Assembly (NCBI GenBank): GCA_014360465.1
Contig: JACIXQ010000018.1
Coordinates: 1 to 37,488 of the forward strand
Direction of reading: 5' to 3'
DNA length: 37,488 bases
Source of the DNA: a bacterium
Lineage (GTDB): Bacteria; Armatimonadota; JACIXR01
The first letter of the stretch is position 1. Each line of letters starts with the position of its first letter. Shown here in pieces: positions 1 through 880 of the stretch. Under the pieces are notes generated by a model. That model had not been told where the DNA came from, did no database searches, and saw nothing but the letters and a program-made list of their open reading frames with translations. Made by a program: the position numbers and the translations under genes.

Positions 1-13
1 TAATTTGGATGTG

Positions 14-206
14 GGGAGGAACAATGACTTTTAGCACACATCTATCCGGGCTCGATACGGCCCTTATAGGTGCTTCGCCGAGGTTAGCCAGAAAACAAGA
101 CTTCGGGCTCGGAAGTTGGCCCATGCGCATACTCGGCTTTACCTCCGCCACATCCGGAAAGGGAAAGTGGCGCCTATCTTTTAAAATGAAAGTCATTGCT
201 CCTCCC
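14..206. other. Nested stem-loop element, possible structured ncRNA or small mobile element
   Basis: Bases 14-33 pair with 187-206 over 20 positions with one mismatch (A21/C199) and one G-U pair (32/188), forming a long closing helix. Inside it are further helices: 48-51 with 60-63, 66-70 with 173-177, 77-82 with 132-137, 87-90 with 117-120, 100-104 with 112-116, and 146-151 with 167-172. The last helix stacks directly on 66-70/173-177. Bases 78-82 could alternatively pair with 108-112 instead of 132-136, so two mutually exclusive folds exist. No open reading frame here looks real. I do not recognise the family. It could be a structured RNA, a HEARO/OMEGA-like relic or a palindromic MITE-like element. 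The transcribed strand cannot be decided, because the mismatches and G-U pairs trade places between strands. It lies directly against a truncated DUF1559 gene, which suggests insertion or rearrangement. Confidence 0.6.
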
Positions 207-880
207 ATTTTATCAATTTTTCCTTACCTTTACCATACCAACAGGATTGGGATGAACGCTTCCCTGTCTGGTGGACCCCTTGTTGGACAGGACCTGCTTA
301 TGCCCCTGGTAGCTCAATGACTGGTGGCAATAACCGACCCGATAACCCACCCTGGTGGGTGAGAATCTATCCCTATGTGAAGAATGGTCAAGTATTTACT
401 TGTCCTTCCCATACTGGTTGGGCTGTGCATCAGGGTTGCGGTGGAGTGGTTAATAATACTACTTCCTGTGGTCAAAGACCGTGGCAAAAACTCGGCGAGC
501 CACTTTCAAGGATTAGCTTTGGTATGGACGAGCTTATCTTCAACGACTACGAGGGGAGGGCTAGTCTAGCAAGATATCAGCATCCCGCCGAGACATTTAT
601 TATTGGAGAAAGTATGGGTACAGGGGTTTTCGGGACGGGACTTTGTTGCCCTGGACACCCTTTACAGGGGCTGATACGCCGTGTGGCTACTGCTAACTGG
701 GACGCTAGACCTACCTGCTGCGATCGCGGTTTCTACATCCAAGATGTAGCGGAAAAATACACACGGCATAGTGGGGGCCAGGTCATCATTTTTATGGATG
801 GACATGCTAAATGGTATCAATGGAGCCAATGTAAAGATTATCATTTCGGAGGGACAATCCGTATGAGTTTGTGGGAATGA
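185..880 (+). pseudogene. 5'-truncated DUF1559 / H-X9-DG pseudopilin-like protein
   Basis: The open frame runs from just after a stop at 182-184 to the stop at 878-880. DUF1559 proteins carry a type IV prepilin N-terminus, a conserved region ending in a QDxDE(R)FP-like block, and a C-terminal H-X9-DG motif. The QDWDERFP block is visible around 242-265. The H-X9-DG motif is exact: His at 767-769, nine residues, then Asp-Gly at 797-802. The prepilin peptide and hydrophobic helix are missing, and the frame has no ATG, GTG or TTG before the ATG at 317. The residues just before QDWDERFP resemble family sequence only weakly. The structured element at 14-206 sits where the N-terminal coding sequence should be. 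I therefore call it a broken gene. A weaker alternative is expression of a 187-residue fragment from 317. Confidence 0.65.

Follow-up and report, generated by a model that had tools for sequence, protein, structure and literature searches.

Left end of an IS110-family insertion sequence, with a predicted minus-strand bridge RNA, at one codon of DUF1559 genes in an Armatimonadota genome

Background

What kind of element occupies the first bases of contig JACIXQ010000018.1 (assembly GCA_014360465.1, a bacterium of the Armatimonadota), whose 37,488 nucleotides are called the window here? An earlier note, made from the letters alone, had described nested stem-loops at positions 14-206 beside a broken DUF1559 gene and had proposed a structured RNA or a mobile element. 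Here we surveyed the copies, ends, insertion sites and fold of this element, and we conclude that window 1-241 is almost certainly the left non-coding end of an insertion sequence (IS) of the IS110 family, which encodes a bridge RNA on the minus strand. Both earlier proposals are thus partly borne out, the structured RNA lying inside the IS end. The element reaches to 241, past the 206 given before, and on its other side it runs beyond the contig start into the transposase.

Distribution of the copies and their insertion sites

Thirteen places in the 2.69-Mb assembly, one of them in the window, match window 1-230, which gives at least 13 copies. Six contigs (C72, C32, C31, C12, C6 and C151) begin or stop at the identical base and others slightly further in; the window begins inside the IS because near-identical copies broke the assembly, as had been suspected of a repeated element. 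In the copy on contig C99 the order is the 5′ half of a DUF1559 gene, the IS right end, a transposase of 390 amino acids on the minus strand, the element and the 3′ half of the DUF1559 gene. Judging from this copy, the transposase of the window copy is expected to lie past the first base of the contig and to be read in the direction away from the DUF1559 gene. Eight further contigs stop in the IS right end after a DUF1559 5′ half, and all nine right-end junctions (C99, C103, C81, C142, C106, C23, C40, C19 and C139) carry the end of the same transposase gene.

These junctions bear on the idea that the hairpin of about 195 bases is by itself a non-autonomous element of the miniature inverted-repeat transposable element (MITE) type. 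The terminal-repeat-like hairpin and its numerous copies, most of which appear only where a contig ends, would suit such an element, but the copies run to the contig ends, the only one assembled through continues into the transposase, as do the right-end junctions, and no hairpin-only copy was found in the genome. We therefore regard it as very unlikely; the term non-autonomous does not fit a family whose C99 copy has an intact IS110 transposase.

The boundaries were taken from both sides. After each of the 13 left-end copies come CAGGATTGGGAYGAR and a gene body containing an H-X9-DG motif; each of the nine right-end copies has ATGTAYNNN and then CA in front of it. Only CA is common to the left and right junctions, as for insertion at a specific site without target duplication. 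A genome of the same genus holds an uninterrupted orthologue of the window gene (288 amino acids, N_methyl and DUF1559 domains) with the same neighbour gene, and DNA homology to this empty site starts exactly at window 242. The truncated DUF1559-type gene reported beside the element is thus confirmed downstream by domain and orthologue comparison, and the element breaks it after the N-terminal domain. Its missing 5′ half is most likely the end of contig C23, which is the best match both to the orthologue's 5′ half and to the orthologue's upstream neighbour.

All of the insertions, at least 13, hit DUF1559 prepilin-type genes, always at one codon (QDWDE). The genome has about 40 DUF1559/H-X9-DG genes, so that roughly a third are interrupted at one codon by the IS. 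A single sequence that leads, at one codon, into 13 divergent gene bodies is also what would be expected of a cassette system recombining DUF1559 gene bodies for surface-protein variation; we consider this extremely unlikely, since independent insertions account for the pattern, given the syntenic intact orthologue and the IS110 transposase, and many DUF1559 paralogues in the genome are uninterrupted. By our own count, C stands directly before the core in 0 of 9 interrupted sites vs about half of 20 intact sites, and the guide base facing this position is G or U.

Two single copies deserve mention. On contig C19 (L039) the IS right end has a short duplication, CATCTATGGGAAAGGTCAAATATCTATGGGAAAGG, unlike the other eight right ends. 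In the C99 copy (L007, 1505-2251) an open frame of 248 amino acids runs antisense through the IS left end and in frame into the DUF1559 3′ part. The window copy has an open frame at 9-320 across the element, shifted in frame relative to the C99 copy, and these frames were taken as incidental because the frame differs between copies.

Bridge RNA: fold, strand and homology

The long closing helix and the nested helices at 14-206 were confirmed. The plus strand of 1-220 has a minimum free energy of -81.1 kcal/mol (z -4.5) and the minus strand of the same region one of -83.4 kcal/mol (z -5.0), with 0 of 200 shuffles as good in either case; both strands fold strongly because the region is a near-perfect nested inverted repeat. 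An Rfam search of the element gave nothing at the gathering threshold.

The 13 genome copies are too similar for compensatory changes, so covariation was sought in relatives. From 80 transposases with 32-42% identity, target and donor loops were found upstream of the transposase in 47, and 26 sequences were aligned. In this alignment 98% of the cells are paired, a value that leans towards the model because the structure was drawn by us from the same sequences, and 6 pairs are changed on both sides, which is independent of that; none of 500 shuffles was as good in these measures. A bridge-RNA covariance model made from other IS110 elements only, without this element, has a single match in the window, which covers the whole model (138-35, minus strand; 17.9 bits, E 0.027); the C99 copy is matched over the full model as well (19.0 bits, E 0.0025). 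By sequence, the target and donor loops are accordingly homologous to those of other IS110 elements. In the donor loop the 4-pair closing stem of the model does not form at the same place, and the closing stem given here was read from the fold and by eye. What had been called an unidentified RNA class is therefore the bridge RNA, or seekRNA, of the IS110 family. The earlier note had said that its proposal would fall if the segment corresponded to a known RNA or to the end of an IS; it does so correspond, yet many copies and compensatory changes were found as well.

The RNA strand is the minus strand and not the plus strand described before. CCGAG at 78-82 is complementary to CTCGG at 108-112 and at 132-136, from which a switch had been proposed; CTCGG is a repeated 5-mer, the bridge-RNA family model does not pair these bases with one another, and we see no evidence for a switch. 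A plus-strand, riboswitch-like leader of the truncated DUF1559 gene, in which 78-82 would change partners, was considered as a rival. The plus strand does fold well, as a near-palindrome does on either strand, and both partners are present. Such a leader is missing from the intact orthologues, however; the element breaks the gene after its N-terminal domain, and the G-U pairing of the guides and the family model fit the minus strand only, so that we give this reading a negligible probability.

Guides and their order

The search for guides covered both strands, both orders, and target as well as donor. Fit was best on the transposase strand (minus), with 0 of 200 shuffles as good for the target-guide pair and 0 of 400 for all guides together; the target guides are complementary to both target strands. 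Over the clade, permutation tests of guides against flanks were run on 13-19 elements, and their counts are not exact probabilities because some elements are close relatives. The target-loop 5′ side fits its own right flank at 100.0 vs 46.7 +/- 6.5 when permuted (0 of 20000 as good), and for the 3′ side and its own left flank 2 of 20000 permutations were as good. The guide order of IS621 was unsupported in the clade (861 and 11694 of 20000 as good). The order in the element and its clade is top-strand guide before bottom-strand guide, the reverse of the IS621/ISEc21 type. The same frame applied to IS4321 and ISKpn2 gives the top-strand guide first, as published for IS1111 elements, and since these controls reproduce the published order the frame was taken as right. 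In the relatives, the 3′ side of the donor loop changes together with the IS right end (CATCCGT, CATCAGT, CATAGGT). The features are given in Table 1.

Table 1. Features of the IS end and of the adjoining gene, in window positions
Feature	Position	Strand	Basis or remark
Left (transposase-upstream) non-coding end of IS110-family IS	1..241	-	13 left-end copies, complete C99 copy, empty-site homology from 242
Predicted bridge RNA region	13..209	-	minus-strand fold; covariance-model hit 138-35; RNA ends approximate
Donor-binding loop, closing stem GCAC/GTGC, apical stem GGGC/GCCC	34..73	-	model alignment
3′-side donor guide GGAUAGAUG	39..47	-	matches IS right end ATAGA + core TG; same relation covaries in relatives
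Target-binding loop, closing stem AGCC/GGCT, apical stem GGGC/GCCC	86..138	-	full-length model alignment
3′-side target guide AGUCUUG (AAUCUUG in C99)	96..102	-	corresponds to left-end-side half AATCCTG with G-U pairs
5′-side target guide GUAUGCGCA	124..132	-	pairs with right-end-side target half + core, TG-CGCGTAC on transposase strand
5′ stem-loop GCGCCAC...GTGGCG	146..172	-	minus-strand fold
Subterminal inverted repeat ACCTTTACCATA, 11/12 identical to right-end ACCTTTCCCATA	226..237	.	junction comparison, IS4321 control
-10-like TATGGT	232..237	-	junction scan; in circle 17 bases after right-end TTGACC
Core dinucleotide CA (TG on transposase strand), at both IS ends	242..243	.	13 left + 9 right junctions, empty site
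3′ part of interrupted DUF1559/H-X9-DG prepilin-type gene	242..880	+	orthologue, domain and junction comparison

Several points weigh against the bridge RNA and guides as assigned. The donor guide pair alone is not significant, 50 of 200 shuffles being as good, and no clear assignment was obtained for the 5′-side donor guide, while the 3′ side matches ATAGATG. Several copies have one mismatch between guide and target, including the window guide vs its likely own left half on C23. The covariance-model match is weak in absolute terms, and the scan of the whole genome gave one hit with E 0.7. IS identity, boundaries, target, copy number, RNA homology and the covariation of guides with targets in the clade are seen in the sequence, whereas transcription of the RNA is inferred.

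Transposase and related elements

The C99 transposase scores above cut-off with all IS110 models (PF01548 45.2 bits, PF02371 99.9 bits, NF033542 243.5 bits). It is a DEDD transposase with an IS116/IS110/IS902 C-terminal domain, and D8, E55, D89/D92 and S256 are among the invariant columns; its match to IS621 is weak. In a small tree, in which IS621 was included only as a fragment, it falls among ISMch4-like proteins (support 83/84), away from the branch of IS4321 and ISKpn2 (95/90), and so it is not in the IS1111 clade. Neither 291 genomes of the phylum nor a profile search gave a relative above 40% over most of the length, single-protein scans of genome and viral contigs gave no close relatives, and no close copy was found in two genomes of the same genus. 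The closest relative found is L164 (DUMQ01000070.1, a metagenome-assembled genome of Bacillota), with 40% over residues 6-370. In L164, GUGCAAAACU, on the 5′ side of the target loop, pairs with AGTTTTGCA, immediately to the right of that element's IS end.

The ISMch4-like elements (L152, L153, L156, L159, L160 and 40 others) are the nearest transposase clade and carry, upstream of the transposase, target and donor loops homologous to those here, with the same guide order; they differ in that their transposases are 34-40% identical to ours and in their targets, such as IS481-type transposase genes. A blind search found no subterminal repeats at ISMch4-like ends, and around relatives' transposases no repeat stood clearly above chance apart from the 12-base one of the IS4321/IS5075 control, which lay at the edge of the null. 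L152, L153 and L159, which come from rhizobia and related bacteria, are inserted at a conserved motif within or close to genes for IS481-type transposases, a case of IS targeting IS.

The bridge RNA of IS621 (PMC11208160, PMC11208158) is alike in lying in the left end, in the order of 5′ stem-loop, target loop and donor loop, and in having two guides per loop with the core included. IS621 differs in its core (CT vs TG/CA here), in its distant transposase and in guide order, the top-strand pairing coming first here. IS1111-group elements such as IS4321 and ISEc11 (PMC11187229) share the top-strand guide before the bottom-strand guide, subterminal inverted repeats and extensions of 7 and 3 bases, and the right extension is AGA here as in IS4321; their RNA, however, lies downstream of the transposase, and their transposases form a separate branch. 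ISEc21, of IS110 type (PMC11187229), also has an upstream RNA and a conserved protein-coding motif as target, namely the catalytic codons of IS3 transposases, so that coding-motif targeting has precedent; it differs in its opposite guide order and in a target within other mobile elements vs a host paralogue family here.

As the C99 copy shows, the RNA of our element lies upstream of the transposase, a trait of the IS110 group, and not downstream as in IS1111. The narrower IS110-group trait, bottom-strand guide before top-strand guide, is absent. The traits of IS1111 elements that were found are the top-strand guide first (PMC11187229 describes top-strand match first for IS1111 and the reverse for ISEc21), the subterminal inverted repeats, of which the 11/12-base repeat adjoins independently known ends, and IS extensions of 7 and 3 bases outside the repeat, if it is counted as 11. 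The top-strand-first guides and the RNA upstream of the transposase together give IS1111 order with IS110 RNA position. Mixed cases of RNA position are not unheard of, exceptions such as ISMtsp17 having been listed (PMC11187229). On balance, we favour the view that the element and the ISMch4-like clade form a third arrangement of RNA-guided IS, with upstream RNA and IS1111 guide order, and with IS1111-type ends in this element. The element is of a known kind and unites traits that the two main studies give to separate groups; its arrangement is real but uncommon.

Proposed transposition cycle

From this anatomy and the published systems, transcription, circle formation and recombination probably proceed as follows. 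The IS would excise as a circle joining its right and left ends, with the computed junction CCCATAGA-TG-TTGGTATGG. A candidate promoter, TTGACC-17-TATGGT, spans this junction as the best among the scanned positions, and it would drive the bridge RNA and the DEDD transposase. The target-binding loop would pair, on both strands, with ATGTAYNNN-CA-GGATTGGGAYGA, which spans the codons around QDWDE in DUF1559 prepilin-type genes, and ATGTAYGCG-CA-GGATTGGGA is the form of target at which insertion is predicted. The donor-binding loop would pair with the IS's own ends, and the transposase would then recombine target and donor at CA/TG.

Significance

A literature search turned up no account of an IS directed at DUF1559. 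By aiming at a motif conserved through a host gene family of many copies, the IS finds plenty of places to land while costing its host little. In the two founding studies each group, IS110 or IS1111, has its own guide order and its own RNA position; in this element these traits are uncoupled, with natural covariation of guide and target in support, which makes the divergence of IS110 and IS1111 testable and supplies another clade of RNA-guided recombinases with an explicit target rule. If the third arrangement is true, the element and its clade would be a living intermediate of the proposed IS110/IS1111 split, and the order of the guides would not depend on where the RNA gene lies.
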